IMG/VR virus record: IMGVR_UViG_3300030390_001213
Coordinates: 1 to 24,504 of that record
Reading direction: 5' to 3' (one strand)
DNA from: a virus
DNA: 24,504 nucleotides
Of this stretch, positions 2,112 to 24,504 are shown piece after piece (within the stretch, counting starts at the first letter, position 1; every line of letters starts with the position of its first letter). Under the pieces are notes generated by a model. The model was not told the origin of the DNA. It searched no databases and worked only from the letters and a program-made list of their open reading frames with translations. Both the position numbers and the translations under genes were made by a program.

Positions 2112-4514
2112 ATGGCAGATTCTGTTATCAATAATTATTTTCCAAGCCAAGTCGTAAGTGATTTGGAAAAAATGAGCTATGATTATGGTTTAAGTGTTGC
2201 TAGAGCGATAGAAACAGAGTGGTTTCATGTTGATAGAGGTTCTAATAGATATAGAAGTAATCAAAATGATTTTCACAAGTTAAGATTATACGCTAGAGGA
2301 GAACAATCGATACAAAAGTATAAAGATGAGTTATCAATAAATGGTGATTTATCTTATTTAAACTTAGACTGGAAACCAGTACCTATAATACCTAAGTTTG
2401 TTGATATAGTTGTAAATGGTATAGCAGAAAGAATGTATGATGTAAAAGCTTATTCACAAGATCCATTTGGCGTTAGCAAGAGAACAGAATACATGGAGTC
2501 TATACTGTCTGACATGAGAACTAAAAAAATTAGCGAGTTTACTGAACAAGCTTTTGGTATGTCACTGTTAGATAATCCAAAAGAATCTTTACCAGATTCA
2601 AAAGAAGAACTAGACTTGCACATGTCGTTAACATATAAGCAAGCTGTAGAGTTAGCAGAAGAACAAGCTATCAGTGTTTTGTTAGAAGGTAATGATTATG
2701 AATTAATCAAAAAAAGATTTTATTACGATATTACAACAATAGGTATTGGTGCTGTAAAAACAAGTTTTAATACATCTGAAGGTGTTACTATTGATTATGT
2801 TGATCCAGCTGACTTAGTTTATTCTTACACTGAGTCACCGTACTTTGACGATATATATTACGTTGGTGAAGTTAAAATGATACCTGTAAATGAACTTGTA
2901 AAACAATTTCCACATTTAACAGAAAGTGATTTAGCTGATATAGTTAAAAACAAAAGTTACCACAAGTCTAATTACCACAACAGCAACTACAATTTAAACG
3001 AAGAAGATAATAATAAGGTTCAAGTTTTATATTTTAATTATAAAACATATATGAACGAAGTTTACAAAGTAAAAGAAACATCTACAGGTGCTGATAAAGT
3101 TTTAGCAAAAGATGATACGTTTAATCCACCACAAGATATGGAAGGTGAATACGGTAAACTGCAAAGATCTGTAGAGTGTTTATATGAAGGAGCTTTGATA
3201 CTTGGTACTAAAAAATTACTTAAGTGGGAAATGTCTAAGAACATGATGAGACCTAAGAGTGATTTTACTAAAGTAAAAATGAACTACGCTATTGTTGCAC
3301 CGCGTATGTACAAAGGAAGAATAGAGTCTTTGGTTGGTAGAATTACTGGTTTTGCTGATATGATACAGCTTACACATTTAAAGCTACAACAAGTAATGTC
3401 TCGTATGGTACCTGATGGTGTTTACTTAGATGCTGATGGTTTAGCTGAAATAGATTTAGGTAATGGAACAAACTATAGTCCACAAGAAGCGTTAAACATG
3501 TTTTTCCAAACAGGATCTGTTATTGGTAGATCATTTACTTCAGAAGGTGATATGAATCCAGGTAAAATACCTATACAAGAAATACAATCAGGTTCTGGTA
3601 GTGGTAAAATGCAAACTTTAATTCAAACATATAATTATTATTTACAAATGATAAGAGATGTGACTGGATTAAACGAAGCTAAAGATGGTAGTACACCAGA
3701 CAAGTATTCTTTAGTTGGTGTACAAAAACTAGCTGCGGCTAATTCTAACACAGCAACAAGACATATACTACAATCAGGTTTGTTTTTAACAAAAGAAGTT
3801 TGTCAATGTTTATCAATGCGAGTTTCAGATATATTAGAGTATTCGCCAACAGCAAACGCTTTTATACAGCAAATAGGATCTCATAACGTTGCTACATTAA
3901 AAGAAATGTCACAACTACACTTATATGACTTTGGTATATTTATAGAGCTTATGCCTGATGAAGAAGAAAAAGCAATGCTTGAAAACAATATTCAACAAGC
4001 GTTATCTCAACAAGGTATTGATTTAGAAGATGCTATTGATCTTAGAGAAATAAAAAGTATTAAACTTGCTAATAGATTATTGAAGATAAGACGTAAAAAG
4101 AAAAAAGAAGAAGATCAAAAAATGCAGCAAGAAAATATAAAAGCTCAATCAGAAGCTAATATACAAGCTCAAAACGCTGCAGCAATGATGGAAGTTAAAA
4201 AGAACGAAGCAGTTACCATGAGTCAATTGCAGTTAGAAGAGGCAAAGGCTAATTTCAAAGCTAAAGCTTTAGAACAAGAAGCAGCTATTAAAAAAGATTT
4301 AATGGAGCATGAGTTTAGGCTTAACATACAATTAGAACAAGCTAAAAACCAGTCTGTTGATGGTAAAGAAAAAATGAAAGAAGATCGTAAAGATGAAAGA
4401 ACTAGAATACAAGCTTCTCAACAAAGTGAACTTATAGAACAAAGAAATAACGGTAAATCACCTAAAAGCTTTGAGTCTGCAGGTAACAATAACTTAGGAG
4501 CAAGAGGTATTTAA
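2112..4514 (+). CDS. Portal protein
   Basis: An 800-aa portal forming the dodecameric ring at the capsid vertex, docking TerL outside and connector proteins below. It is assigned by position (TerL-portal-scaffold-capsid), by size, and by a region around residues 517-550 (VTGLNEAKDGSTPDK, then LVGVQKLAAANSNTATRH) that I recall from portals of marine podovirus-like phages. Residues about 657-775 are very rich in K, E, Q and A with no proline, predicting a long coiled coil; this recalls the helical barrel at the C-terminus of P22-type portals, which is an inference from composition only. The tail after about 775 is polar and likely disordered. The start ATG has no Shine-Dalgarno box and follows the terminase stop by 2 bases (TAAATATGG), suggesting coupled translation. 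Confidence 0.88.
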   Translation: MADSVINNYFPSQVVSDLEKMSYDYGLSVARAIETEWFHVDRGSNRYRSNQNDFHKLRLYARGEQSIQKYKDELSINGDLSYLNLDWKPVPIIPKFVDIVVNGIAERMYDVKAYSQDPFGVSKRTEYMESILSDMRTKKISEFTEQAFGMSLLDNPKESLPDSKEELDLHMSLTYKQAVELAEEQAISVLLEGNDYELIKKRFYYDITTIGIGAVKTSFNTSEGVTIDYVDPADLVYSYTESPYFDDIYYVGEVKMIPVNELVKQFPHLTESDLADIVKNKSYHKSNYHNSNYNLNEEDNNKVQVLYFNYKTYMNEVYKVKETSTGADKVLAKDDTFNPPQDMEGEYGKLQRSVECLYEGALILGTKKLLKWEMSKNMMRPKSDFTKVKMNYAIVAPRMYKGRIESLVGRITGFADMIQLTHLKLQQVMSRMVPDGVYLDADGLAEIDLGNGTNYSPQEALNMFFQTGSVIGRSFTSEGDMNPGKIPIQEIQSGSGSGKMQTLIQTYNYYLQMIRDVTGLNEAKDGSTPDKYSLVGVQKLAAANSNTATRHILQSGLFLTKEVCQCLSMRVSDILEYSPTANAFIQQIGSHNVATLKEMSQLHLYDFGIFIELMPDEEEKAMLENNIQQALSQQGIDLEDAIDLREIKSIKLANRLLKIRRKKKKEEDQKMQQENIKAQSEANIQAQNAAAMMEVKKNEAVTMSQLQLEEAKANFKAKALEQEAAIKKDLMEHEFRLNIQLEQAKNQSVDGKEKMKEDRKDERTRIQASQQSELIEQRNNGKSPKSFESAGNNNLGARGI

Positions 4515-4542: not shown

Positions 4543-5721
4543 ATGGAAGAAAACGTAGAAAACGTAGTTGAAGAAACTACACAAGACCAAGTTGTCGCTG
4601 ATGAATCTAAATTTGCATCTGCTGGAGACGACACTATTTTAAAGGTAGACTTAAGTCAACCACCACCAGAACCAACACAAGATGAAACTAAAGAAAATAA
4701 CCCTGACAACGAGGGAGTGGTTACAGAGCTTGATAATGCCGAGTCCACAGAAAAACAAGAAGAAGTACAACCGCAAGAGCAAGCACAAGAAGCTCCAGTA
4801 TTAGAAGAAATTACAGACGAAGAAGTTAAAGAGCAAACAGAAGATTTAACTGAAGAGATAATAGAAGCTCAAGAAACTGGAAAAGCTTTGCCAGAGAATT
4901 TACAAAAAGTTGTAGATTTTATGGAAGATACAGGCGGAAGTCTAGAGGATTATGTAAAACTTAATCAAGATTATGCTAGCTATGACAATGATACATTGTT
5001 AAGAGAGTATTACCACAATACAAAACCTCATTTAGACAATGAAGAAATAAGTTTCTTAATGGAAGATCAGTTTTCATATGATGAAGATGCTGACAATGAA
5101 AGAGACATAAAAAGAAAAAAATTAGCATTAAAAGAGCAAGTTGCCGATGCTAAGGCCCATCTGGACAGGCAAAAGTCCAAGTACTATGAAGAAATTAAAG
5201 CTGGATCGAAACTCACTACTGAGCAACAGAAGGCAGTTAATTTTTTTGATAGATACAACAAGGAGTCGGAAGAAAGTCAGAGAATAGCAGAAAAAGGTAA
5301 AAATGTATTTGTAGAAAAAACTAATCAAGTATTTAACAACGAATTCAAAGGTTTTGATTATAACGTTGGTGATAAGAGATACAGATATAATGTTAAAAAT
5401 CCTGATAACGTGAAACAAACTCAAAGTGATATTAATAATTTTGTTCAAAGATTTACTGATAAAAAGAACGGACAAATTAATGATGCTAAAGGTTATCACA
5501 AATCATTATTTACAGCTATGAACCCAGATGCTATTGCTAATCATTTTTACGAGCAAGGTAAAGCTGATGCTATGAAAAATAGCGTTGCTAAATCTAAAAA
5601 CGTTAGTATGAATCCTAGACAATCGTTTAGTAATGAAAATACTAGTGGTATGAAAGTAAGAATAGTTAACGATCAGCTTTCTGAAACGGCATCTTTTAAA
5701 TTTAAAACTAAAAATAAATAA
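4543..5721 (+). CDS. Capsid scaffold / assembly protein (probable)
   Basis: A 392-aa, strongly acidic protein between portal and major capsid genes, the usual place for a scaffold. Residues 1-120 are dominated by E, D, Q and P and are probably disordered. A more ordered helical core spans about 120-290, with GGSLEDYVKLN near 135 and EEISFLMEDQFSYDED near 167, followed by a basic helical stretch (RDIKRKKLALKEQV). The C-terminus is basic and ends KFKTKNK. An acidic N-terminus, helical middle and basic tail fit scaffolds that bind capsid protein through their C-terminus. No protease motif is seen, so self-cleavage cannot be argued. The 28-base leader is purely A/T. The role is inferred from context and composition; a minor head protein is the alternative. 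Confidence 0.7.
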   Translation: MEENVENVVEETTQDQVVADESKFASAGDDTILKVDLSQPPPEPTQDETKENNPDNEGVVTELDNAESTEKQEEVQPQEQAQEAPVLEEITDEEVKEQTEDLTEEIIEAQETGKALPENLQKVVDFMEDTGGSLEDYVKLNQDYASYDNDTLLREYYHNTKPHLDNEEISFLMEDQFSYDEDADNERDIKRKKLALKEQVADAKAHLDRQKSKYYEEIKAGSKLTTEQQKAVNFFDRYNKESEESQRIAEKGKNVFVEKTNQVFNNEFKGFDYNVGDKRYRYNVKNPDNVKQTQSDINNFVQRFTDKKNGQINDAKGYHKSLFTAMNPDAIANHFYEQGKADAMKNSVAKSKNVSMNPRQSFSNENTSGMKVRIVNDQLSETASFKFKTKNK

Positions 5722-5741: not shown

Positions 5742-7175
5742 ATGGCAATTACTAGAAGAACGGAGTTTCAAGCTGCACCAGTGCAAGCTGTTACTTCACA
5801 GAATTACTTAGACATCCAAAACAACGGATGGGCACAGCAATACTTACCAGACTTAATGGAAAAAGAAGCTGAGGTTTACGGAAAACGTACAATCTCTGGT
5901 TTCTTATCTCAAGTTGGTGCAGAGGAAGCTATGTCAGCTGATCAAGTTATTTGGTCAGAACAAGGTAGATTACATCTATCTTACGAGTGTGACATGTTAG
6001 ACGTTACAGCAAGTACAATTAATATCACTAAAGATATTGATGGTGTTGCTCAAACAACTACACACGGTATTAGAGTTGGTGATCAAGTATTGATCGCTGG
6101 AGGTGGACAAACTGTTACAGCTCGTGTAAGCGTTGCTGCTGCAGGTAATCAAACTATTACAGTAACACCTTATAGATTTGCACACATGACAAATGCAGGT
6201 TTTGCTAATGGGGACAACACATGTACTATATTAGTATTTGGTTCTGAAAACGCAAAAGGAGTTGCATACGTAGGAGGTAGATCTAACGAGCCAGCTTTCA
6301 CTACATTCACAAACAAACCAATCATTTTAAAAGACATGTATGAGGTTTCAGGATCTGATGCTGCTCAAGTTGGTTGGGTTGAAGTTTCTGGTGAAGAAGG
6401 ACAAAATGGTTACTACTGGTACTTAAAAGCTGAAGGAGACACAAGAGCTAGATTTACTGATTACTTAGAAATGAGTATGATTGAATCAGAGTTAGTTGCT
6501 GCTGCTTCTGTTATTGCTCTACCAACTGATGGTGGTGCAGGTACTGCGGGTACTGAAGGATTATTTGCTGCAATCAGATCAAGAGGTAATCAAACTTCAG
6601 GAGTTACGGGTACTAACCCTTCTACTGATTTTGCTGAATTTGATTTAATCTTAGCTGAATTTGACAGAAATGGTGCAATTGAAGAAAACATGATGTTTGT
6701 AAATAGAGCTACGTCTCTTGCAATGGACGATATGTTAGCTTCATTAAACTCTGGTTATTCTGGTGGTACTTCTTACGGAGTATTTAACAACTCAGAAGAC
6801 ATGGCTTTAAATTTAGGTTTCTCTGGTTTTAGACGTGGATCTTACGATTTCTACAAGTCTGACTGGAAATACTTAAACGATTTAGCTACTAGAGGTGGTA
6901 TAAACAATGCTGCTACTGCAGGTGAAGATATTAGAGGGGTTGTTATACCAGCTGGTACTTCTTCAGTTTATGACCAACAATTAGGTAAAAACCTTAAGCG
7001 TCCTTTCTTACACGTAAGATATAGAGCTTCTCAGTTAGAAAGCAGAAAAATGAAGACATGGGTTACTGGTTCCGTTGGAGCTGCTACGTCTGATCTTGAT
7101 GCAATGACTGTAAACTTCTTATCAGAAAGATGTTTAGTTACACAAGGTGCTAACAATTTCATGTTAATGAACTAA
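5742..7175 (+). CDS. Major capsid protein
   Basis: A 477-aa coat protein of presumed HK97 fold. Assignment rests on position after the scaffold, the family length, and segments I recall from capsid proteins of marine and crAss-like phages: residues about 50-82 (GKRTISGFLSQVGAEEA, VIWSEQGRLHLSYE) and the C-terminal part (PFLHVRYRASQ, MKTWVTGS, SERCLVTQGANNF). Residues about 85-175 are rich in T, V, G and A and look like a beta-rich insertion domain. Codon use differs from the neighbours: TTC, TAC, AAC and GAC are frequent although the genome is AT-rich, as expected for the most highly expressed gene. The ATG follows an A-rich leader with no Shine-Dalgarno box. A strong intrinsic terminator begins 12 bases after the stop, so the transcript can end with this gene. 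Confidence 0.9.
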   Translation: MAITRRTEFQAAPVQAVTSQNYLDIQNNGWAQQYLPDLMEKEAEVYGKRTISGFLSQVGAEEAMSADQVIWSEQGRLHLSYECDMLDVTASTINITKDIDGVAQTTTHGIRVGDQVLIAGGGQTVTARVSVAAAGNQTITVTPYRFAHMTNAGFANGDNTCTILVFGSENAKGVAYVGGRSNEPAFTTFTNKPIILKDMYEVSGSDAAQVGWVEVSGEEGQNGYYWYLKAEGDTRARFTDYLEMSMIESELVAAASVIALPTDGGAGTAGTEGLFAAIRSRGNQTSGVTGTNPSTDFAEFDLILAEFDRNGAIEENMMFVNRATSLAMDDMLASLNSGYSGGTSYGVFNNSEDMALNLGFSGFRRGSYDFYKSDWKYLNDLATRGGINNAATAGEDIRGVVIPAGTSSVYDQQLGKNLKRPFLHVRYRASQLESRKMKTWVTGSVGAATSDLDAMTVNFLSERCLVTQGANNFMLMN

Positions 7176-9744: not shown

Positions 9745-12700
9745 ATGGCTGAGCTAAAGCATAATTTTACTAAGGGTCGAATGAACAAAGATGCTGACGA
9801 AAGATTAGTGTCTAATGGTGAGTATAGAGATGCCATGAACATTGAGGTTTCTACTTCTGAAGATTCTGACGTTGGTACTATACAAACAACTTTAGGTAAC
9901 ACTTTAAAATCAGCTACTGGAACAAGCACTGCGTTTACAGTTGGATCTATTGTAGATCATAAAACAAACAAAGTATATTGGATGGTTCACAACGACCAAA
10001 AAATTGTTGGAAGCGGTATCACAAGAGACATGATTGTAGAGTACAACCCAAACACAGAAACAAACAAATATGTTTTTGTTGACATTTATAAGGTTGTATC
10101 TTCAATAGGAACGTCAAATGGTGGTGCCGTTAAATATTTATATATAGCTCTTGGCAATAGCACAGCAACTAATAACATTACTGGTATTAGAAAAGGTATG
10201 CAAGTAACAGGTACTTTTAACAATGTGTTTTATGGATCAAATTCACTATACAATATTACTGTTGAAGATGTAGAGTTTGATGCTACTTATGGATGGAAAA
10301 TAACTTTAAACAGAGCAGTTCAAACAATAGCTGGTGAGCAAGTAAATTTTATAGCAGAAAGAGTTTTAAACTTTTCAAGAAACAGATTAGTGTCAGGTAT
10401 AAATATTGTTGATGATATGTTATTCTGGACAGACGGAGGTTCAGAACCTAAAAAATTAAACATTATAAGAGGTATAAAAGGTACTGGTGGTTCTAGAACT
10501 TTAAATACAAATGCAACAACTACTTTTAATGGAGACAATTTCAACCATCATACTAGACTTGTTATTGATGATATAGACAGTGCACCTGGTGTATACGAGG
10601 TTGTTACAAATAGATTAGCTACGTATCCTGTTTTTTGTAAAGAATCACACTTAACAGTTCTTAGACCAGCACCTCAAACAGTATTGCAATTAGAAATGTC
10701 TAGAACTTCTTATAATAGAGGTAATGGAAATACTGGCGCTGTAAATAGAACTGATGCTCAAGCAACAATACAATTTTTTGATCCACTAGTTACAACCCAA
10801 CCTTTAGTAAGTGGTAGTTTGGTGCAAGTTACTTTTGATCAAGCACCTGATTACAGAGTTGGAGATCATATAATAATAACAAACGACACAAGTGTTTTAC
10901 CAACAGACTATACAGATTATAAAGTTAGATGTAAAGTGTCACAAATACCAACTGGTCACACTAACAATAATTTAATGTTAGGTATATTTGAGTTAGAAAT
11001 TATTACAATTTCTCAAGACTTAGTTTACAATGCTAACGGTGAACAGTTTTTTACTTTGCTAGAACAAAAAGACTCTGTGTTTGAGTTTAAATTTCCTAAG
11101 TTTAGTTATAGATATAAATATACTGATGGTGAGTATTCAGCTTTTGCACCTTGGTCTGAAATAGCTTTTTTAGCTGGTAGTTTTGATTATGAACCTAAGC
11201 ACGGTCACAACTTAGGTATGACAAATCGTATGAAGTCTTTGTGTTTAAAAAACTACGTACCAGAACCTGGAGAGATTGGTGCATCAAGACCTGGTGATGT
11301 TATTGCTATAGATATTTTATATAAAGAGTCTAACAACACAAACATATACACTGTTAAAACAATAACTTCAAACGATGACCACCCTGTGTGGCCTGATCTT
11401 GCTACAAAAGCTTACGCAAGAGGAGAGTTAGTTATTGACACAGAAATGATACATGCTGTTTTACCATCTGATCAATTTTTAAGACCTTTTGATCTTGTTC
11501 CAAGAAAAGCCAAAGCTCAAGAAGTAACTGGTAATAGACTTGTTTATGGTAACTACACACAAAATTATAACGTTGATGAAATTATAAACATTGAAACAAC
11601 ATTGCAAGTAGGAAGTTTTGTTACAAACTCTGACACAGGGCAAAAGTCTGTAAAGTCATTAAGAGATTATCAAGTTGGAGTTGTTTATCTAGATAAGTAT
11701 GGTAGAGAAACACCAGTTTTAGTTGGGCCAGAAAAAGGATTTAAAAGAGTTGGTAAAGTATTTAGTGATAACTTTACAAAGCTAAGAGCTAAGCTTACAA
11801 ACCCTCCACCATCATGGGCTAAAGGATTTAAGTTTTATGTGAAAGAACCTTCTAATGAGTATTACAATTTAGCAATGGATAGATGGTATAATGCTAAAGA
11901 CGGTAACATATGGATAAGTTTCCCTTCTTCAGAAAGAAATAAAGTTGACGAAGAAACTTTTTTAATACTTAAAAAATCACATGCTAAAAACAACTCTGTG
12001 GCTAACGATGTTGGTAGGTATAAAATACTTGCTATAGAAAACGAAGCACCAGAGTATATAAAAAAAGATAGAAAAAACTTAGGTGAGATATTTGATAACA
12101 GTGCTAAAGAACATATTGGTAACGGTGGTGATGGTTTTCCTTTTCCAGGTTTTAACTATATAGAAGTACCTTACGCAGCTTTAAATAATAGTAGCATTGT
12201 TGATATAGATGCTTCTGGAACTGTAAATCCTAAATCACCACACTTACAAGATAATCTTTTTATACGCGTAGGTGGTCCTGATCATCTTAGTGCGGAATAT
12301 GAAGTTGTTGGTATTTCTAATACTGGTCAAGGTGGTAATTATAAGTTTAGATTAAACAAACGTTTAGGTGATGATTTAGAATTTACTTCAACAGACGGAA
12401 CATATGCTAATAGAATTAGTGGTTTGTTTATGCAGTTGATACAATACAGAACAGAAAACAAAGCAGAGTTTGATGGTAGATTTTTTGTTAAAATAAATCA
12501 AGATCAAGTAATAAGATCAAACGTTATTGGTGATAAAATAGACGCAAGAGACATGATCGTTTATTCAGCAAGAAATCTTAGATATGTAAAATCTAAATCA
12601 ACTCATCCAAACCACGCTGGTATGCCTAACTCAAATCAATGGCATGGTAGTAATAATTTCAACAGAGCTTGGGGTGGTATTGGAGGTGTTAGTGATCACG

Positions 12701-15684
12701 ATGATATACATAATAAACTTGATGTAAATGGTTATTCATATTGGAAAGGTTTTATAAAGTTTAATAGAAATGGTAATGGTAGTAAGTTCTTTATTGATGA
12801 AGACAGTATAGTTACTATAGGTCCAGATGGATCTCCTGTTAGCTCTAACTTAGCAACTGGTGATATGGCTACTAAAGCTTTTTGTTTTCCAAACATAACA
12901 AACAGTGATAGTTTAACTAAACACGATGGACAAAAAAATACTGGTTATGGTGGCAATAGTGCTAAATATCCAAAAGGAATACACCAAGGAGCTAATGAGC
13001 CTGTTGGTAGTAGAATAGATATATCTTGGGTAGGTTATGAAGATTCTAATTACCCACAAAACTCTCCTCCAGTTTTCTGGAGTCAACATGGTCAAGACAT
13101 TGCACCTGAAGATTATGAGTTTTCAAAAGAGTGGTTTCAAATAGGTACTAAATTTAGATTTGCAGGAGATGATGATGAAACTGTTTACACGGTTAAAGAC
13201 TATCGACATGAGTTTGGTCTTAGAAACTTTCAAACTATAAATGGAAATATTCAAACATCTAATAGAAATAAAGGTTCTGTTTATAGAGATAAATGGACTT
13301 TAAAAGTAGAACCAGCTATAGTAAGAACAGCAACTGGTTTTTATCCTACTGATATAAGACATGACGGTACACAAAACCAATTGGTTGAACTTGTTAGAAG
13401 TCACGTAGAGAATGGTGTGGCAGAGTTTACTGATAATCCTGGTATTTTTGAAACAGAACCAAAAGAAGATGTTGGGCTAGACGTTTATTACGAAGCTAGT
13501 GTTACATATCCAACACAGATAAATTCTGATACAAACGAAATGTTTGCACCTATAGGATCAACAGTAAGTGTTCTTTCTACTAATCAAAATGCAACTGTTT
13601 CTGCTGGCTGTAAGGTATTTAGCTGGAGTGACAACACTGTTACATTAGACGGTTCTGTTACTGATCCTAACCAAGGTGAAATACTTGTATTTACTAGACC
13701 TGACGGTGGAACTGTGCAAGCCAAAGTTGAAGCTATTTCAGCATCTACACAACCGCAAGGAGTACACGTTGCTACTGGTTTAACAATGTTTAGAGATGTA
13801 AGTAATCAAAGATTTACGCTAGGATATACAAATTGTTTTGCTTTTCCACAAGGAATAGAGTCTGATAGAATTAGAGATGATTTTAACCAAGTTACAATAG
13901 GTAAAGGAACTAAAGCATCTACCGTGCTAGCTGAACAGTTTAACGAAGAACATAGAAAGTCAGGTTTAATATTTTCTGGAATATACAACTCTATGACTGG
14001 TGTTAATAATCTAAATCAATTTATAGCATCAAGTGGTATTACTAAAGACTTAAACAATCAATACGGCTCTATACAAAAATTATTTACTAGAGACAACAAC
14101 ATAGTTGCTTTTTGTGAAGACAAAGTATTGAAAGTGTACGCTAATAAAGACGCTTTATTTAATGCTGATGGTAGTTCAAATGTTATTGCTACTAACAGAT
14201 TTTTAGGTGACGCACAACCTTTCGGTGGTGATTTTGGTATATCTAAAAACCCAGAATCATTTGCTCAAGAAAACTTTAGAATATATTTTACTGATAAATC
14301 AAGAGGTGCTGTTTTAAGATTATCTAAAGACGGTTTAACTGTTATATCTAATCAAGGTATGGCAGATTACTTTAGAGATCACTTACCACTAGCAACAGAT
14401 TTAATAGGTAGTTACGATAAAAGAAAAGGTTTGTACAATATTACTTTACATGACAAAGGTGTTAATCCAAACGGTACTGGTATTGGTGCTGGTATAACTT
14501 ACACACCAAAAGTAGATACAACCGTAAGTTTTAGTGAAAAATCTGGTGGTTGGACTTCTTTTAAATCTTTTGTTCAAGAGTCTGGTATAAGTTTAGACAA
14601 CAACTATTACACATTTAAAAGAGGTGAGATATTTCTTCACCACAGCAATCAAGAAACAAATAACTATTACGGTACAATTGCTAACTCAACTAACGGAGCG
14701 TTTTCAAGTGTAACAGTAATGTTAAACGATTTACCTGGTTCTGTTAAAAGCTTTAACACGTTAAACTACGAAGGAACACAATCTCAAATTGATTTATTTC
14801 AAACGGTAACTGTTGGTGGTGTTGTTTATAACGATGGAGAGTTTTACAATTTAAAAGCTAAAAAAGGTTGGTTTGTAGACTCTATGATTACAGACATGCA
14901 GACAGCTAGATTAAAAGAGTTTATCGAAAAAGAAGGTAAATGGTTTAATTACTTATACGGTGAAACAACTACATTAGCTAATTTAGATAGTACAGAGTTT
15001 TCGTATCAAGGTATAGGTCTAGCTGAATCTATAACACACAACGGACCGTCACCTATTTATGGTTGCACAGATTCTACAGCTTTAAATTACAACCCAGCAG
15101 CTACGATTAATGATGGATCGTGTTTATATATTAATAACCCAATACAAACAAATGCTTACTTGTGGAACAATATATTACAACCTTGTAAAGGTAGTTGCTT
15201 ACCTAATTTTACTACAGCTGCTGATTACGATTTTACGCACACTATAACTGTAAGCTCTAGCTTACCAGCAAATACAACTGCTACTGTGGGTGCTATATCA
15301 GTACAACCTTTCCAACAAATAAATGGCTGTGCAGGTACACAAGCAATTGATGGTGTAGCTCCTGACAATACAAATATAGATCCTGTTTATACAATAGTAT
15401 TTACAGCTGATGCAGGTTTCAAGTTTACAGGAATACCATCAGCAACCGTAACTAGTAACGACGCAAATACTTCTATAACTGATTACACTATAACTCAAAC
15501 AGCTCTTGTTTACGATAATAATTCAAATTTAACTGGAGCTACATTTACAGTTTCTTTTGTAACTCCTGGCGCGGCGATGACAGTTCGTGATGATATAAAA
15601 TGGAATATATGTAACACTAGAATACCAACAACAAACAATAGCACTTATACATTAACAGTACAAGACGATCCAAACGATCATTAA
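9745..15684 (+). CDS. Giant tail stabilisation / muzzle-like protein
   Basis: A 1979-aa protein, the largest complete gene. The N-terminus (KHNFTKGRMNKDADERLVS, then NGEYRDAMNIEV) is a signature I recall from the giant tail 'stabilisation' or muzzle proteins of crAss-like and marine phages. Residues about 226-237 (LFWTDGGSEPKK) and 72-76 (KVYWM) resemble YWTD-type beta-propeller blades. Further blocks are about 451-476 (KFSYRYKYTDGEYSAF), 641-660 (QVGVVYLDKYGRETPVL) and about 1395-1550 (SGIYNSMTGVNNLNQF, LKVYANKDALFNADG). A Cys-bounded motif (GCTDSTALNYNPAAT through DGSCLY) sits at 1773-1795, typical of secreted flavobacterial proteins. A Thr/Ser-rich beta module follows to the end. No signal peptide or lytic motif is seen. 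Likely forms the distal tail tube or nozzle; the extra C-terminal part may contact the cell surface. Confidence 0.78.
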   Translation: MAELKHNFTKGRMNKDADERLVSNGEYRDAMNIEVSTSEDSDVGTIQTTLGNTLKSATGTSTAFTVGSIVDHKTNKVYWMVHNDQKIVGSGITRDMIVEYNPNTETNKYVFVDIYKVVSSIGTSNGGAVKYLYIALGNSTATNNITGIRKGMQVTGTFNNVFYGSNSLYNITVEDVEFDATYGWKITLNRAVQTIAGEQVNFIAERVLNFSRNRLVSGINIVDDMLFWTDGGSEPKKLNIIRGIKGTGGSRTLNTNATTTFNGDNFNHHTRLVIDDIDSAPGVYEVVTNRLATYPVFCKESHLTVLRPAPQTVLQLEMSRTSYNRGNGNTGAVNRTDAQATIQFFDPLVTTQPLVSGSLVQVTFDQAPDYRVGDHIIITNDTSVLPTDYTDYKVRCKVSQIPTGHTNNNLMLGIFELEIITISQDLVYNANGEQFFTLLEQKDSVFEFKFPKFSYRYKYTDGEYSAFAPWSEIAFLAGSFDYEPKHGHNLGMTNRMKSLCLKNYVPEPGEIGASRPGDVIAIDILYKESNNTNIYTVKTITSNDDHPVWPDLATKAYARGELVIDTEMIHAVLPSDQFLRPFDLVPRKAKAQEVTGNRLVYGNYTQNYNVDEIINIETTLQVGSFVTNSDTGQKSVKSLRDYQVGVVYLDKYGRETPVLVGPEKGFKRVGKVFSDNFTKLRAKLTNPPPSWAKGFKFYVKEPSNEYYNLAMDRWYNAKDGNIWISFPSSERNKVDEETFLILKKSHAKNNSVANDVGRYKILAIENEAPEYIKKDRKNLGEIFDNSAKEHIGNGGDGFPFPGFNYIEVPYAALNNSSIVDIDASGTVNPKSPHLQDNLFIRVGGPDHLSAEYEVVGISNTGQGGNYKFRLNKRLGDDLEFTSTDGTYANRISGLFMQLIQYRTENKAEFDGRFFVKINQDQVIRSNVIGDKIDARDMIVYSARNLRYVKSKSTHPNHAGMPNSNQWHGSNNFNRAWGGIGGVSDHDDIHNKLDVNGYSYWKGFIKFNRNGNGSKFFIDEDSIVTIGPDGSPVSSNLATGDMATKAFCFPNITNSDSLTKHDGQKNTGYGGNSAKYPKGIHQGANEPVGSRIDISWVGYEDSNYPQNSPPVFWSQHGQDIAPEDYEFSKEWFQIGTKFRFAGDDDETVYTVKDYRHEFGLRNFQTINGNIQTSNRNKGSVYRDKWTLKVEPAIVRTATGFYPTDIRHDGTQNQLVELVRSHVENGVAEFTDNPGIFETEPKEDVGLDVYYEASVTYPTQINSDTNEMFAPIGSTVSVLSTNQNATVSAGCKVFSWSDNTVTLDGSVTDPNQGEILVFTRPDGGTVQAKVEAISASTQPQGVHVATGLTMFRDVSNQRFTLGYTNCFAFPQGIESDRIRDDFNQVTIGKGTKASTVLAEQFNEEHRKSGLIFSGIYNSMTGVNNLNQFIASSGITKDLNNQYGSIQKLFTRDNNIVAFCEDKVLKVYANKDALFNADGSSNVIATNRFLGDAQPFGGDFGISKNPESFAQENFRIYFTDKSRGAVLRLSKDGLTVISNQGMADYFRDHLPLATDLIGSYDKRKGLYNITLHDKGVNPNGTGIGAGITYTPKVDTTVSFSEKSGGWTSFKSFVQESGISLDNNYYTFKRGEIFLHHSNQETNNYYGTIANSTNGAFSSVTVMLNDLPGSVKSFNTLNYEGTQSQIDLFQTVTVGGVVYNDGEFYNLKAKKGWFVDSMITDMQTARLKEFIEKEGKWFNYLYGETTTLANLDSTEFSYQGIGLAESITHNGPSPIYGCTDSTALNYNPAATINDGSCLYINNPIQTNAYLWNNILQPCKGSCLPNFTTAADYDFTHTITVSSSLPANTTATVGAISVQPFQQINGCAGTQAIDGVAPDNTNIDPVYTIVFTADAGFKFTGIPSATVTSNDANTSITDYTITQTALVYDNNSNLTGATFTVSFVTPGAAMTVRDDIKWNICNTRIPTTNNSTYTLTVQDDPNDH
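15061..15129 (+). other. GCTD-type Cys-bounded domain motif in the giant tail protein
   Basis: This codes for residues 1773-1795 of the giant tail protein. Cysteines at 1774 and 1793 bracket an Asn/Asp-rich loop (NYNPAATINDGS). The same pattern occurs, often in tandem, in secreted and surface proteins of marine Flavobacteria, where the Asp/Asn positions suggest calcium binding. Here there is a single copy at the junction between the conserved tail core and a variable beta-rich end. Confidence 0.75.
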
Positions 15685-17953: not shown

Positions 17954-18415
17954 ATGTCTGATAATTCGGTAGTTACAAAATCAAAAGTAATTGAACTACA
18001 AAATGAGTTGCTTAAAAATGTTGATAATGAAAACATTATAGGTAATAACGGTGAAGTAGTTAGAAGTGAAGTATTTCCACTAAAACATAGTTTTGTAGAT
18101 GGTATATATGTTAGGCAAATGGAAATGAGTAAAGACTCTATGGTTGTTGGCGCTATACATAATCACGAACATTTATGGTTTTTGTTAACAGGTAACATAG
18201 TAATATTAGCAAACGAAAAAACTGAAGAGTATATTGCGCCATGTTATGTTAAATGTCCGCCAGGAATGAAAAGAGTTATATATGCTGTTAGTGATAGTAT
18301 ATTTGTAAATATACACAAAAACCCAACAAACACACAAGACTTAGATAAATTAGAAGCTGAAATAGTTTCAGGAAGTTACGAAGAGTATGAAGAATATCAA
18401 AATAAAAACAAATAA
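17954..18415 (+). CDS. Cupin-fold virion-module protein
   Basis: A 153-aa protein with a single cupin-like barrel at residues about 35-120. Cupin motif 1 is seen as GAIHNHEHLWFLLTG, with three His residues in HxHxH spacing; the usual Glu two to three places after HxH is replaced by Leu, though a Glu lies inside the His cluster. Motif 2 appears as PPGMKRVIYA, where the usual His is Arg, with a further His in FVNIHKN. Some metal-binding capacity is possible but the ligand set is not canonical. The C-terminus is acidic (YEEYEEYQNKNK). Cupin-like genes occur in marine phage tail regions. Here it sits between fibre-like and internal-protein genes; a structural or assembly role, or a small enzyme acting on surface glycans, are both possible. 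The next gene follows after one codon, in frame. Confidence 0.72.
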   Translation: MSDNSVVTKSKVIELQNELLKNVDNENIIGNNGEVVRSEVFPLKHSFVDGIYVRQMEMSKDSMVVGAIHNHEHLWFLLTGNIVILANEKTEEYIAPCYVKCPPGMKRVIYAVSDSIFVNIHKNPTNTQDLDKLEAEIVSGSYEEYEEYQNKNK

Positions 18416-18418
18416 AAT

Positions 18419-19057
18419 ATGAGTTTTATAATAGTAGGAGTAGCTGCTGCCTCAGGATTAACAAAGATAGGTATGGCATTAGCTGGTCGTAAAAAAAGAA
18501 TAGCAGAGCAAAAATCTGCGAACAAAGAGCTTCAACAAAGAAGAGATGCTTACGAAAGTTTAGATACTAGTAACCCGTATTTAAACATGGAAAATACTAT
18601 GGAAGATTTAACTGTAAATCAACAACAAGCACAGTTCCAAAAAGATATGGCTCAACAACAACAGTCAAACATGCTGGGTTCTATGCAGCAAAGTGGTGGT
18701 TTTAATGCTGGTAATATACAAGCTATGGTTAACGCTGGATCAAATCAAGCAAGACAAGCTTCAGCTAGCATAGGTCAACAAGAAGCACAAAACCAAAAAG
18801 CAGAAAGATCTATGGCTGGTCAGATACAAGCTAAAGAAAGAGCAGGCGATGTATATTCAAGAGGTCAGAAAAAAGATAAAGCTGAAACATTGTTTGGTAT
18901 GGCAATGACAAGATCAAAAGAGTCTGACGAAGCTAGACAAAGAGCAGGGCAAATGATTGCTAGTGGTGTTGGTGATTTAGCTAGTGCAGGTATAGGTGCT
19001 GGGCAAGCTGGTGCATTTGGAGAAAAAGCTCAAACATTTTTATCAGGACCTCAATAA
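18419..19057 (+). CDS. Internal virion protein (small, helical; probable)
   Basis: A 212-aa, Gln/Ala/Gly-rich helical protein. The first 22 residues are hydrophobic then basic (VGVAAASGLTKIGMALAG followed by RKKR), suited to membrane contact. The middle holds SLDTSNPYLNMENTMEDL and then a long Q-rich stretch (FQKDMAQQQQSNML). The end has a second Gly/Ala-rich segment (SGVGDLASAGIGAGQAGAFG). Two small hydrophobic ends on a Q-rich helical body, placed before two larger soluble proteins, match the layout of T7 gp14-type ejection proteins, which form the outer-membrane part of a channel. That role is inferred. The start lies one codon after the cupin stop (TAA AAT ATG). Confidence 0.6.
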   Translation: MSFIIVGVAAASGLTKIGMALAGRKKRIAEQKSANKELQQRRDAYESLDTSNPYLNMENTMEDLTVNQQQAQFQKDMAQQQQSNMLGSMQQSGGFNAGNIQAMVNAGSNQARQASASIGQQEAQNQKAERSMAGQIQAKERAGDVYSRGQKKDKAETLFGMAMTRSKESDEARQRAGQMIASGVGDLASAGIGAGQAGAFGEKAQTFLSGPQ

Positions 19058-19067
19058 AACAAACAAC

Positions 19068-20843
19068 ATGGCGAAGAAATTTAAAAAACATATGATGTAC
19101 GGGCCAAAAGGTAAATCTAAAATGGCTAACACTCACAAAGAACATTTAGCTTTAAAGAACAAAGGTTATGGTCATACTAAAAGTCCTTTAAAAATAAATC
19201 AAGCTTTAATAGAAAACTATAAAGGTGTAAATAAATATACTAGAACTGGTGGAGGTACTAGAATACCTGAAATGGACGTTAAAACTGTTGACTCTATGTT
19301 TAAACCTATGGCTGCAACTGCAAGTCAAGGTTTAGAAAAATCTTTTTTAAATCAAAAACCACCAAAACAAGAAGAAGAAACAACTCCAAAAGAAGAAGCA
19401 ACACCAAAAAAATCAACAAATACTAATCTTGTTTCAGAAATAATTAAAGAAGATCTACCAAAAATAAATGATAAAGACGCTCCAATTATTGATGGTCGAA
19501 CTAGGAAACAAAAAAGAGAAGAAAGAAAACAGGATAAGATAGAACAGCAGATAAAAAAGGAACAAGAAAAATTAGACAAAAAAGATAAAGAACAACAAGG
19601 GCCAAATTTAAATGATAACTTTGATAAAACAAATTATGAGCTTAGAAAAAATAAAAGTCTTACATTAGAACAAAATACACTAGCTGGTGATCCAAAACCT
19701 ACAAGATTAAGAGTTAGAAGTGTTTTTGATAAAGGTAGAAGAAATGACAATGTTGTTGAAGTTAATGGACAACGTATGTCTAATGAGGATTTTCAAGAGT
19801 CTTTTGGTACAGCAACACGTAGAGGTAGTGATCCAAATAGAAAAGGTCCTGGTGATTATGATTTTCAGGGTTCGTTAGCGCCTAATTCACCTTTTAAAAA
19901 GCGTGAAGATGATCAAGAAGCGTACGATCCTTTAACTGATCTTCAAATGAGAAATCCAAACATAGAAAGAGAAGTAGATACTTACATTGAAAACACTAGT
20001 TTGGTAGGTGATGAAAAACTAGATATTTTAGGAGCACAAGCTAACTCTAGAGTTTTTGATTTTTCAAAACAATTGAAAGATCAAGCTAATATGTACATTG
20101 AATCAGAGGGTAACAGTAAAGTTGTAAACGATTCTATAAACACATTGAGAGGTTTAGCACAAAAAGTAAACAACTTAGTTGATAAAAAAGCCGAGTGGAT
20201 AGAGAACAACGGTGGAGGTGAGGCTGGTAAGCGTGGTTTTTCAAAAGGATCTTCTGGTAAAAATAAGTTTATGCAAAATTCTATATTTACTGAAAGAGAT
20301 GATTTGTATAAAATGATATTACCTTTGCCTGAGCAAACCGTAAGTGGTGACACAAAGTTTGGAGATATAGAATTTGCTTTTGGAGATTTTAACGATGGGC
20401 AAAGACCAAACGCAGTTGTAAAGTCTGGTCAAATATTTAAAGATGTGTTTATGAAACCAGAAGGTAAGTTTGCAGATTTTAGAAAAGCAGCTGTAAAACA
20501 AGGTGAAAATTCTAGAGACAGAAAACCATTTAATGCTTATCATGCTGAGGTTGTTGTAAACGGTTTGTTAGATTCAAAAGAAAACGTGCTAGCTTTTGCT
20601 TGGGATGATTTTGCTGGACCATCTTTTATAGATCAATACTCAGAAGCTCGTCCTAACGAAGATATTAGCTGGGCAGATGTTGATGATCCAAAATTCAGCG
20701 AAGATAGATTAAAAAAAGAAGTTGGTTACTGGCTTAATCAAAAGCTTAAAACAGAGCATGAGATGACAAAAGCAAATAATCAAGCTATGTCATACTTAGA
20801 CAAAATGTCACCAGATGAATTAATAGCAAAATATTCAAAATAA
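19068..20843 (+). CDS. Virion protein of unknown function (possible ejection protein)
   Basis: A 591-aa protein. The start at 19068 (ACAACATGGCG) is chosen because it follows the preceding stop by 10 bases and begins a plausible N-terminus, MAKKFKKHMMYGPKGKSK; an in-frame ATG at 18996 would overlap the preceding gene by 62 bases. The N-terminal 50 residues are basic (HKEHLALKNKGYGHTKSPLK), a pattern I recall from marine phage structural genes. Residues about 99-180 are charged and low complexity (KQEEETTPKEEATPKK; KREERKQDKIEQQIKKEQ), probably a flexible linker or coiled coil. Residues about 270-591 look globular with aromatic-rich patches (FAFGDFNDGQ; VLAFAWDDFAGPSF). No enzyme motif is recognised. 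It stands between a gp14-like gene and a giant gp16-like gene, so an internal virion protein is the working guess. Confidence 0.6.
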   Translation: MAKKFKKHMMYGPKGKSKMANTHKEHLALKNKGYGHTKSPLKINQALIENYKGVNKYTRTGGGTRIPEMDVKTVDSMFKPMAATASQGLEKSFLNQKPPKQEEETTPKEEATPKKSTNTNLVSEIIKEDLPKINDKDAPIIDGRTRKQKREERKQDKIEQQIKKEQEKLDKKDKEQQGPNLNDNFDKTNYELRKNKSLTLEQNTLAGDPKPTRLRVRSVFDKGRRNDNVVEVNGQRMSNEDFQESFGTATRRGSDPNRKGPGDYDFQGSLAPNSPFKKREDDQEAYDPLTDLQMRNPNIEREVDTYIENTSLVGDEKLDILGAQANSRVFDFSKQLKDQANMYIESEGNSKVVNDSINTLRGLAQKVNNLVDKKAEWIENNGGGEAGKRGFSKGSSGKNKFMQNSIFTERDDLYKMILPLPEQTVSGDTKFGDIEFAFGDFNDGQRPNAVVKSGQIFKDVFMKPEGKFADFRKAAVKQGENSRDRKPFNAYHAEVVVNGLLDSKENVLAFAWDDFAGPSFIDQYSEARPNEDISWADVDDPKFSEDRLKKEVGYWLNQKLKTEHEMTKANNQAMSYLDKMSPDELIAKYSK

Positions 20844-20844
20844 T

Positions 20845-23800
20845 ATGGCTGAAACAATAGAACAGGTAGAAGAATTAACTTTAGAGCAAAAAACAAAGCT
20901 TGCTAATACTATAAAAGGTATGAAGGACGATGGGGTAGCTGACGAAGTTATTCAACAGTCTGTTATAGATATTAAGCAAAACTTTAAAGATAAAAACTCA
21001 CAAGCTATTGTTGCAAAAAATTTGTTTAGAGATAGTGTTATGCTTCCTGAAGTTGAGATCAAAGGTGGAGATGGAACTATTACTAAGAATGACTTAGCTA
21101 CAGAAAATAAAAAAGTAATTTCAGACAAAGGTAATAAATATTTAAACGGAATAAGTTTAGAGCTTAGTCCAGACTTTATTGGAAGTGAAGTTGAGCTTAG
21201 TGATCCTACGAAAAGCGAAGATCCTGACTATGAAAGTTCTAAAATAAAGGTTGGGAAATTTACAAATTATATGAACGAAGACTACGCTGTGCAAGCGGAA
21301 ACTTTTATTAATGAAAAAATAGACACAAAACTTAAAGAATTAGAAGAAGATCCTGATGTATTTTTTGATGCAAAATTGTACAATGAAGCTCATCAGTACA
21401 TGTGGAAAAACACACCAACAATAAATCACCCTACAGAAAATAGATATTTAACTGTTGATGAGTTAGATGTTGATCAATTAGAAGATTATAGAAAAGAAAA
21501 CTACGATAGCATTTTAAACAGTTGGATTGACAGCGAGGAAGGTCAAGATGTTTTTACTCAAATAGAACCTGAAATAACAAGTTTTGTTAATAATCTTTTA
21601 CCAGATATACAAACAGAACTGATTAACGGAGACATTGATTTAGAAGAAGCTACTTATAAAATAAGGTTAGCATATGCAGATGGTCTTAGCAATTCTTTAA
21701 AAGATAACGAACAATACCAAACAGCTAATCAAACAATAGTAAGATCTGTTATGAGTAATTATGACAGCACAATAAATGATAAGAAAAACGGTGAGTATGT
21801 ATCTACTTTTTATCCTCCTTGGTTACAAGGCGATCTTAGTTTTTTCCAAGGTATTTACGATCAAGCTTATATATATGCTCCTAAAGCTGCTAATCTTAAT
21901 AAGTTAGATGCGAACAGTCAAAAACATAGAAATGTTTTGCAAAACCTTAGAATAATAGATGATTATAAAATTGGTGGAGATGAATTGTTTTTAGCAAACC
22001 CATATACAACCGAAAAAATGTCTCACCATATTAGAGAAGAAAAAAGATTAGGTAAGGTTTTTTTCTCTGGTATAGTTAATACTTGGATGGGAGAAAAAGA
22101 AGATGGTGTTTATAAAAACAACTTTACTCTAAAATCTGGTTACTACGACAAGCAAGAGCTTAAAAACAAACTTCTTGATTTACAAAAAGCTTATCAATTT
22201 GAAATGCAATTAGCTATTGCTAAAGACTCTGATTTTAAAAAGAAGATAAGCGCAATGGGTGATACTACTTTTTTAAACGAAATGTATCAATTTACTGCCA
22301 CTGTTGATGATTGGCAAAAAGAATTAGGTAAACAAACGTTTAATACTTTTGCTGGTATGTTTACAGGATCTTTTTACAGTATTGGTATAGAAAGTGCTGG
22401 TGCTTTTGGTGAACTACTTGATGCAGATGCAGTTAAAAGAGTTGGCACAAAAGCTTGGGACGGTATGTCTGAAGAAAAAAGAAATGAATACAGACTTCGT
22501 ATACTAAACGATGGTCTTACAGATGAAATGATTACCACTATGATTCATGGAGGTGTTGATGAAAGATTTGTAGATTCACGTGCTGGTAACATAAGTAGTA
22601 AAGCTAAAAGCGTTGGTATGATAAACGGTGTTTTAGAAACTGGATCAGATGGTTTTGTTCTTTTTAGGTCAGGTAAAATTGTTACAAAACTAATACCAAA
22701 AAGACTGTGGGCTGAAATGATGAAAGGAGTTTATGTAAACGCTATTAAAGCTGGTAAGCGATTAACTAAAGAAATGTTAATGACTGGTCTTGTTATAGAA
22801 CCTATTGTAGAAAACTTACAAGAAATAAGTAAAGAAACAGCTTTGTTTTCTGAAGGCAATGGTTGGGGTTATAGCTTAAATGAAGCAGCTAACTTAACTG
22901 CAACTACAATGTCAACAGCTACGTTTATGCCTCTTGGTGGTGCTGTAACAACTACAATAGCAAATCAATATCAATACTCTACAACAGATAGCGCATTAGC
23001 AAACGACATTAAAAAAGTTGAAGACAAATTGTTAAACGAATTAGCTAAAGATCCAAAAAATAAAGAATTACAAGATCATTACAACAAAGCATTAGAAATA
23101 AACCAAAAATTTCAAGAGATTGTTGACGATGCTACTTATGAAGACATGACTAGTTGGATTAAAGATGAAGACTCTAAGCTAGAAATTATAGAAAATATAG
23201 GTCAGCAAGTAGATGTAATGAAAGAGCTTGGTGTTTTAGAAAAAAGACTTTCAAACTATGAAGGACAAAGTTTTGAAGGTGATAAAGAAATAGAAAACCC
23301 TATAGTAACACAACAACAAGCAACGGTTAAAAAACAAATAGCAGAAAAACAAAAACAATTAGTTCAACTGCAAAGCGAAGTAAAATACGTTCAGCTGACT
23401 CAAGAGTATATGAACGACTTTAATAAAGAAGCTATTATAAACAATGGAGATAAAAACTCTGATTATGTGTTTTTAGCTTTTGAGAACAACAGTGAAATGA
23501 TTACTTATTTAATTAATCAAGGTTTAGACCCAAACACTAGTGAAGGAGCTGCTTATATAAAAGCTGTTAAAGAAGGACGTAATTTTGGTAGTTTTTCAGA
23601 GCTTAAAGATGAAAATGGAAAAAACATTATGGTTATTAGTGAAGAAAACACTTTTGACTACATAAAAGAAAATGCTTTAACTAGTGGTTTTATTGCTGGT
23701 AACGTTATTTTTCATGAAAAACTTCATGCAAATTTAAGAAACTTAGGCGGTAAAAAAATACAAGAAATATCTTTTAACTTACAAAGAATTTTAAACACAA

Positions 23801-24504
23801 GTATTCCTGGTATTCATGATTTTGCTAAGCAGCAAATTATTATGAGCAAGTATGAAAATGGTAAAGATTATAAAATAAACAAAAAAGGTGAATTTACATA
23901 TCTTAGTCCGTTAGTTGCTGAAGAATATATTGCTAAAATATCTGATGGTTTTGCTGGCTACACATTACAAAGCATGACAACAGAAGGTATGCAGGCTTTA
24001 AGTGATTTTAAAGATACTTTTAGTGAAATTTCTCAAGGAAAACTAACTAATGAAAACATATTAGCGTTTATTAAAAGTTACAATAAAAACGATTTGTCTG
24101 GTCCAAGAACAGAGTCAGACATTTGGGTTGATGAAAATGGTATACCATCAAATTTCTATTACAATGAAATTGATATTGTTGACACTATGGACGATTTAAG
24201 AATGGCAGCTTCCTCAGAGTCTACTGTTACAACGTTTGTTGAAACAAAAAACTTAATGTACAACAATCCTAGTAATGAAACAATACTTACTAAGACTAAA
24301 GACATGATGGGTGATTTAATAAACGTTACAGATAATGTTAGAAAAAGTAAATCTTTATTAGATGAGCTAACAATAATAAACTCTGGTAGTGTTGCAAAAA
24401 TATTACAAAAATCTGGCTTTAGAAACGAGCTTGAGTATATACTTAACAAAGAAGATTTTGAACTATCAATGTTAAAAGAGTATGCTACTTTTATGCCACG
24501 CTGG
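20845..24504 (+). CDS. Giant internal virion protein with HExxH zincin motif (3'-partial)
   Basis: The frame opens at ATG 20845, one base after the preceding stop, and stays open for 1220 codons to the window end. Residues 1-490 are acidic and helical. Hydrophobic, Gly-rich stretches occur at about 499-521 (FAGMFTGSFYSIGIESAG), 590-615 and 683-705 (LTATTMSTATFMPLGGAV), which could contact membranes. A Q/K-rich coiled coil is likely at 823-860. At 957-961 there is HEKLH (context NVIFHEKLHANL), the zinc-protease HExxH motif, and AEEYIAKISDGF at 1025-1036 offers a Glu third ligand about 65 residues on, as in gluzincins. The layout suggests a giant ejection protein like T7 gp16 in size and place, but with a metallopeptidase rather than a visible transglycosylase. 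Its target (cell-wall peptides, host protein or itself) is unknown. Confidence 0.7.
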   Translation, partial: MAETIEQVEELTLEQKTKLANTIKGMKDDGVADEVIQQSVIDIKQNFKDKNSQAIVAKNLFRDSVMLPEVEIKGGDGTITKNDLATENKKVISDKGNKYLNGISLELSPDFIGSEVELSDPTKSEDPDYESSKIKVGKFTNYMNEDYAVQAETFINEKIDTKLKELEEDPDVFFDAKLYNEAHQYMWKNTPTINHPTENRYLTVDELDVDQLEDYRKENYDSILNSWIDSEEGQDVFTQIEPEITSFVNNLLPDIQTELINGDIDLEEATYKIRLAYADGLSNSLKDNEQYQTANQTIVRSVMSNYDSTINDKKNGEYVSTFYPPWLQGDLSFFQGIYDQAYIYAPKAANLNKLDANSQKHRNVLQNLRIIDDYKIGGDELFLANPYTTEKMSHHIREEKRLGKVFFSGIVNTWMGEKEDGVYKNNFTLKSGYYDKQELKNKLLDLQKAYQFEMQLAIAKDSDFKKKISAMGDTTFLNEMYQFTATVDDWQKELGKQTFNTFAGMFTGSFYSIGIESAGAFGELLDADAVKRVGTKAWDGMSEEKRNEYRLRILNDGLTDEMITTMIHGGVDERFVDSRAGNISSKAKSVGMINGVLETGSDGFVLFRSGKIVTKLIPKRLWAEMMKGVYVNAIKAGKRLTKEMLMTGLVIEPIVENLQEISKETALFSEGNGWGYSLNEAANLTATTMSTATFMPLGGAVTTTIANQYQYSTTDSALANDIKKVEDKLLNELAKDPKNKELQDHYNKALEINQKFQEIVDDATYEDMTSWIKDEDSKLEIIENIGQQVDVMKELGVLEKRLSNYEGQSFEGDKEIENPIVTQQQATVKKQIAEKQKQLVQLQSEVKYVQLTQEYMNDFNKEAIINNGDKNSDYVFLAFENNSEMITYLINQGLDPNTSEGAAYIKAVKEGRNFGSFSELKDENGKNIMVISEENTFDYIKENALTSGFIAGNVIFHEKLHANLRNLGGKKIQEISFNLQRILNTSIPGIHDFAKQQIIMSKYENGKDYKINKKGEFTYLSPLVAEEYIAKISDGFAGYTLQSMTTEGMQALSDFKDTFSEISQGKLTNENILAFIKSYNKNDLSGPRTESDIWVDENGIPSNFYYNEIDIVDTMDDLRMAASSESTVTTFVETKNLMYNNPSNETILTKTKDMMGDLINVTDNVRKSKSLLDELTIINSGSVAKILQKSGFRNELEYILNKEDFELSMLKEYATFMPRW
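23713..23961 (+). other. Candidate zincin active site (HExxH plus EExxA)
   Basis: This stretch covers residues 957-1039 of the giant last protein. H957, E958 and H961 form HEKLH within a hydrophobic-flanked helix (NVIFHEKLHA). E1026 or E1027 in AEEYIAKI lies about 65 residues downstream in a helix-like setting, fitting the third zinc ligand of gluzincins. The pattern is seen directly; activity is inferred. Confidence 0.6.

Follow-up and report, generated by a model that had tools for sequence, protein, structure and literature searches.

A probable zincin-type metallopeptidase domain within a giant modular ejection-type protein of a marine podovirus

The success of a phage infection depends on proteins delivered into the cell together with the DNA or before it, and the tasks of most of the enzymes they carry are obscure. 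Zincins were predicted in the polyvalent proteins of phages in 2017, with an MPTase core in which three strands are accompanied by an N-terminal helix, a helix bearing HExxH, and a further helix that supplies a glutamate (Iyer et al. 2017, PMC5512222). In the literature searched, with most subscription journals lying outside the search, no experimental test of a polyvalent-protein zincin was found. N4 vRNAP has a conserved HExxH in its C1 domain (PMC12633501) and is packaged uncut (PMC5512222). For crAss001, large cargo proteins stored in the capsid and tail are described (Bayfield et al. 2023, PMC10172136).

The protein studied here is encoded at the end of a 24,504-nucleotide stretch of viral DNA, which we refer to in its entirety as the window. 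Like the polyvalent MPTase proteins, it belongs to a set of very large modular phage proteins with the same core topology and, in some members, lysozyme or transglycosylase domains; the zincin of the window has no significant Pfam or PHROG match by which to assign it to any of the 12 published clades. Like N4 vRNAP, it would be a giant virion protein that is ejected, and its HExxH domain likewise lies inside the chain; an N4-like vRNAP model was among the weak viral fold neighbors, but no RNA polymerase domain was recognized in the giants scanned by Pfam. A possible likeness to crAss001 lies in the large cargo proteins and in the muzzle, which weakly resembles a 1,979-aa tail protein of the window, whereas a term search of PMC10172136 returned no mention of a protease. 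As with T7 gp16, the giant protein is encoded late in the structural block, and some relatives have an N-terminal wall enzyme, in one case SLT; in contrast to gp16, the window protein has no recognized transglycosylase, its zincin lies mid-chain, and the phage group is unrelated. Zincins of the lethal factor and PPEP type (M34) and YbeY are the best structural neighbors of our models, but identities are only about 7 to 15% at Z scores of 5 to 6, and no sequence relationship to them was found. The closest known kind is thus a phage polyvalent protein with a zincin-like peptidase. The theme has already been described under that name (PMC5512222), and by the sequence comparisons the present set is an uncatalogued family, or new branch, within it.

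The window is the whole of IMG/VR record IMGVR_UViG_3300030390_001213, which is linear and probably a fragment. Genes for the terminase (1-2109), the portal (2112-4514), and a probable scaffold (4543-5721) precede the gene for the major capsid protein (5742-7175, + strand; PHROG 13704, E=5e-104), which we used both to place the phage and to fetch its relatives. Ring-type virion proteins follow, and then the gene for the 1,979-aa tail protein (9745-15684, + strand), which is crAss muzzle-like through a weak match to Pfam PF25729 (E=4e-4, below the cut-off) and which also resembles a virion structural protein of phi38:1. Further tail genes lie between this gene and the giant gene. The gene immediately 5' of the giant (18996-20843, + strand) has counterparts of 72 to 84% identity in the related loci L190 and L189. 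The capsid protein is 39 to 47% identical to those of Cellulophaga (Callevirus, Pervagoviridae), Flavobacterium (Elemovirus), and Maribacter phages, and because of this we place the window phage, on sequence, as a marine podovirus near phages of flavobacteria and not near T7. The T7-like setting proposed in the preliminary description was consequently not borne out, as the capsid and tail genes match those of Flavobacterium and Cellulophaga podoviruses and, weakly, the crAss muzzle. Two other features of the tail region were recorded. A 153-aa protein (17954-18415) matches PHROGs for short tail fibre/adhesin (E=7e-26) and appears cupin-like by eye; in spring phage MW202828, the neighboring position is annotated as a putative glycosidase. 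The stretch GCTDSTALNYNPAATINDGSC lies at 15061-15123, within the muzzle-like tail protein, and recurs as matches at several sites of other large proteins encoded on related contigs.

The giant gene (20845-24504, + strand) is an open ORF of at least 1,220 aa with no stop before the window ends, and it would encode a modular protein of the cargo or ejection type. The zincin-type domain, at about residues 830-1090 (23332-24114, + strand), was delimited by an HMM match, an AlphaFold model of residues 830-1110, and the zincin neighbors of that model. It is the sole domain recognized in the cut window protein, and no significant Pfam, PHROG, or PDB sequence family was found for the region. HEKLH occupies residues 957-961 (23713-23727, + strand) within a predicted active-site helix of residues 950-965 (23692-23739, + strand; pLDDT ~90), where it would supply two zinc-ligand histidines and the catalytic E958. 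A predicted glutamate helix at residues 1022-1038 (23908-23958, + strand; pLDDT ~95) contains the EExxA motif, whose E1026 and E1027 (23920-23925) lie 65 to 66 residues past H961; E1027 (23923-23925, + strand) is the likely third zinc ligand. Both motifs were therefore present in this ORF as the preliminary description had read them, and the gluzincin-like layout that it proposed for an ejection-type giant is supported, the third predicted ligand beside H957 and H961 being, most likely, E1027. It had also reported no transglycosylase in the visible 1,220 aa, and none was recognized there by a Pfam scan. When the 1,220-aa window protein was shuffled 5,000 times, any HExxH arose in just 0.64% of the shuffles.

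Relatives were gathered through the capsid protein, after which the DNA further downstream was retrieved. All 14 long giants at the equivalent position (2,292 to 4,058 aa) have HExxH, a single copy in each except for one record with two, and the cultured Flavobacterium elemo phages have HEIFH in their positional equivalent of the giant. The motif is absent from phi38:1 and Panino, whose giants are shorter (1,691 and ~1,830 aa, respectively). With the shared C-terminal module of the giants as the query, we found 80 more loci. Complete giants numbered 75, and 73 of them have HExxH, where shuffling predicts 0.93; no HExxH occurs in the 157,700 aa of the remaining ORFs on these contigs. An in-frame HELLH just upstream of the trimmed start in L145 brings the total to 74 of 76. 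Among the giants readable through the region, every one (76/76) has either HExxH or HDxxH at the aligned place, the latter being HDAFH in L114 and HDGLH in L174, both with the downstream glutamate kept. These two sites, at residue 1030 of the L114 giant and residue 868 of the L174 giant, are natural controls and are possibly altered or inactive. Since the aligned sequences were picked by HExxH, those three columns are invariant by selection, but the E1027 column was not used for picking and holds E in 73 of 74 sequences and D in the remaining one; the D1034 column is acidic in 69 of 74. Meanwhile, the surrounding domain sequence has drifted to about 20% identity, while the glutamate of the motif is kept in 74 of the 76 giants.

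Connecting the window domain to these relatives by sequence search gave mostly negative results. No match was returned by tblastn against phage records with either the window protein or the L109 giant, by viral-contig scans with the window zincin region or with the N-terminal part of the window giant, or by a search of 42 related records with the window protein. No N-terminal signature common to the window and its relatives was found, and the region upstream of the zincin, which looks alike by eye, had an HMM score not above those of shuffles. An HMM built without the window scored 14.9 bits at window residues 863-1082, compared to 5.0 for the best of 492 shuffles, but the score for the whole window protein was not significant after composition correction. 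The link came from L190, which was reached through the gene upstream of the giant (72% identical there). Its giant, of 2,751 aa, is the nearest homologue found. The two proteins align across 1,231 positions with 27.7% identity (E=2e-100), and in this alignment HEDIH falls on HEKLH and EEYI on EEYI. We regard this alignment as the decisive link between the window domain and the zincin set of the relatives, and with it the motif is kept among homologues, as the reading of the preliminary description requires. The L190 giant extends into the conserved C-terminal module at residues 1875-2704, and the window gene was therefore probably cut before that module.

The predicted folds point in the same direction. 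With an alignment anchored on the motif, AlphaFold2 models were obtained for the domain of the relative L109 (mean pLDDT 84) and for window region 830-1110 (mean pLDDT 74.6, with most core blocks at 83 to 95). In both, a helix at the N terminus is followed by a sheet of three strands, beside which lie the helix with HExxH and the one with the glutamate. By the comparison tool's own guide, structural Z scores of 5 to 6 are weak, and in this range zincins come first among the neighbors of L109: lethal factor (Z 5.3, rmsd 4.9, 163 aligned) and PPEP-2 (5.3), with PPEP-3, the YbeY-like AQ_1354, and IrrE also near the top. The neighbors of the window model are the N-terminal region of lethal factor (Z 6.3, rmsd 5.3, 164 aligned), AQ_1354 (Z 4.9), and YbeY (Z 4.7), against 3.6 for the best non-zincin fold. 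Foldseek against the PDB gave no significant match for the models, and weak neighbors among viral models include proteins named large polyvalent, ART-PolyVal, vRNAP, and structural. The zincin helices foreseen in the preliminary description are thus present in the models with zincins as the top neighbors, and the models assign the window domain to the zincin fold class, with weak structural scores.

Beyond the zincin, the homologous giants hold several domains, namely a muralytic N terminus, a Zeta-toxin/AAA kinase-like domain, and HAD-like and C-terminal modules. Most long giants end in a common C-terminal module of about 850 aa, roughly 43 to 73% identical, which includes the HAD-like motifs DFDDTL, LTARP, and DDA; the giants of elemoF and MW202828 are without it. 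The N-terminal parts of the long giants, by contrast, are highly variable, and Pfam recognizes GH108 in two of them, a phage lysozyme in one, and SLT in one. Two giants (L110:2492-3931 and L111:2663-4102) are 93.6% identical from about residue 260 onward, yet the former begins with GH108 and the latter with SLT, which reads as a clean exchange of wall enzymes on one giant. In T7 gp16, too, a giant virion protein begins with an enzyme that cuts the wall. The Zeta-toxin/AAA kinase-like domain is found at residues 2459-2594 of the giant at L088:5394-17567 (E=6e-9) and in three other giants. Taken from their sequences, these are modular giants with an exchangeable muralytic start in some relatives and a constant HAD-like plus C-terminal end in most. 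In phi38:1 and elemoF, the proteins encoded at the equivalent position carry structural-protein annotations, an indirect sign that the giant may be delivered into the host with the DNA. As a separate observation, an acidic/serine stretch such as DPTMSQESMGSQLDDGSSES is common to the N-terminal 120 residues of the giants in G005 (L096), L113, L116, L170, L173, and L124 and is absent from the other ORFs of those loci; it is possibly a packaging or sorting signal.

A short motif, [IVLM]xFS[KR], was examined in the giants of L109-L188 and was picked after the fact. Between the zincin and the HAD-like module it occurs 40 times against 5.2 expected, and in the 60 residues before the HAD-like module 28 times against 0.5, a part of the excess being due to homology, as some of the motif positions are homologous to one another. 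Upstream of the zincin (3 occurrences, 4.0 expected) and in other ORFs (6 occurrences, 6.6 expected) it shows no enrichment. In 59 of 83 giants the stretch from the zincin to the HAD-like module contains the looser FS[KR], and in an unbiased count FSK ranks high in the middle region as one of several over-represented tripeptides. The window ends before the region where sites of this type would lie. The motif is a possible processing site. Co-evolution of enzyme and site was not supported, since the presence of FS[KR] does not follow the zincin tree, on which it needs 19 changes, as against 20 on the C-terminal tree.

We consider it probable that HEKLH belongs to a genuine zincin-type metallopeptidase domain (H957, E958, H961, E1027) mid-way in a giant modular cargo or ejection protein of the phage polyvalent kind. 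The weak family HMM score of the window could be taken to mean that HEKLH arose by coincidence in a protein of helical, coiled character, but its rarity in shuffled sequences and the zincin-like window model speak against this, and the alignment of HExxH and EEYI within the L190 match largely refutes it, leaving coincidence with hardly any probability. The domain might instead keep its fold, and perhaps a metal, for a structural or packaging role without cutting. There is precedent in N4 vRNAP, in which the region with the HExxH domain is needed for packaging and the protein stays uncut (PMC5512222, PMC12633501), and it is in keeping with this that two relatives have HDxxH and that the short giants of phi38:1 and Panino manage without the motif. 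The persistence of the catalytic glutamate through so much drift of the surrounding sequence, however, makes a role of this kind improbable.

In the mechanism that we propose, the giant would be packaged into the virion and leave it together with the DNA or in front of it, and the zincin would bind zinc and cut proteins. The likeliest substrate, put forward tentatively and at somewhat less than even chances, is the giant itself, which would be divided into its working parts as it is ejected or afterwards; self-cutting is favored, as a hint, because enrichment of [IVLM]xFS[KR] is confined to the part beyond the zincin. That same enrichment weighs against an injected zincin that cuts a host protein of defense, transcription, or the envelope in the first minutes of infection, and neither a host target nor a feature pointing to specificity turned up. 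We regard a host substrate as rather unlikely, though it draws on the use of zincins as effectors in other conflict systems (PMC5512222) and on the top fold neighbors, some of which (PPEP and lethal factor, for instance) are secreted peptidases. The place of the giant gene in the structural gene block would suit a protease that cuts capsid or tail proteins at assembly, yet phages with a short, motif-less giant still make a similar capsid protein, and virion maturation seems distinctly doubtful. We know of no cleavage of capsid proteins in these phages. Opening of peptidoglycan cross-links at entry would fit an ejection-type giant, some relatives of which have wall enzymes in the same chain, but where such an enzyme is recognized it is a separate N-terminal domain that already does the wall cutting. 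Zincins of the HExxH...E layout, moreover, mostly cut proteins, so that a cell-wall role is very improbable. Because the wall enzyme is a separate domain in some relatives, the zincin probably serves another task there. Self-cutting of the giant, to return to the preferred substrate, has a more specific and more speculative form, to which we give little weight, in which the giants are self-cleaving polyproteins and the zincin would cut at [V/I]xFS[K/R] in the junctions that separate it from the HAD-like and C-terminal modules, so that individual effectors are freed in the newly infected cell.

Although very divergent, the large set of environmental phages assembled here has retained the active site almost without exception. 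The cultured Flavobacterium elemo phages belong to the same phage group, making mutants and virion proteomics feasible, and the motif downstream of the zincin provides a direct, testable prediction. If the polyprotein idea is true, it would mean a protease with a readable cleavage code within phage polyvalent proteins.
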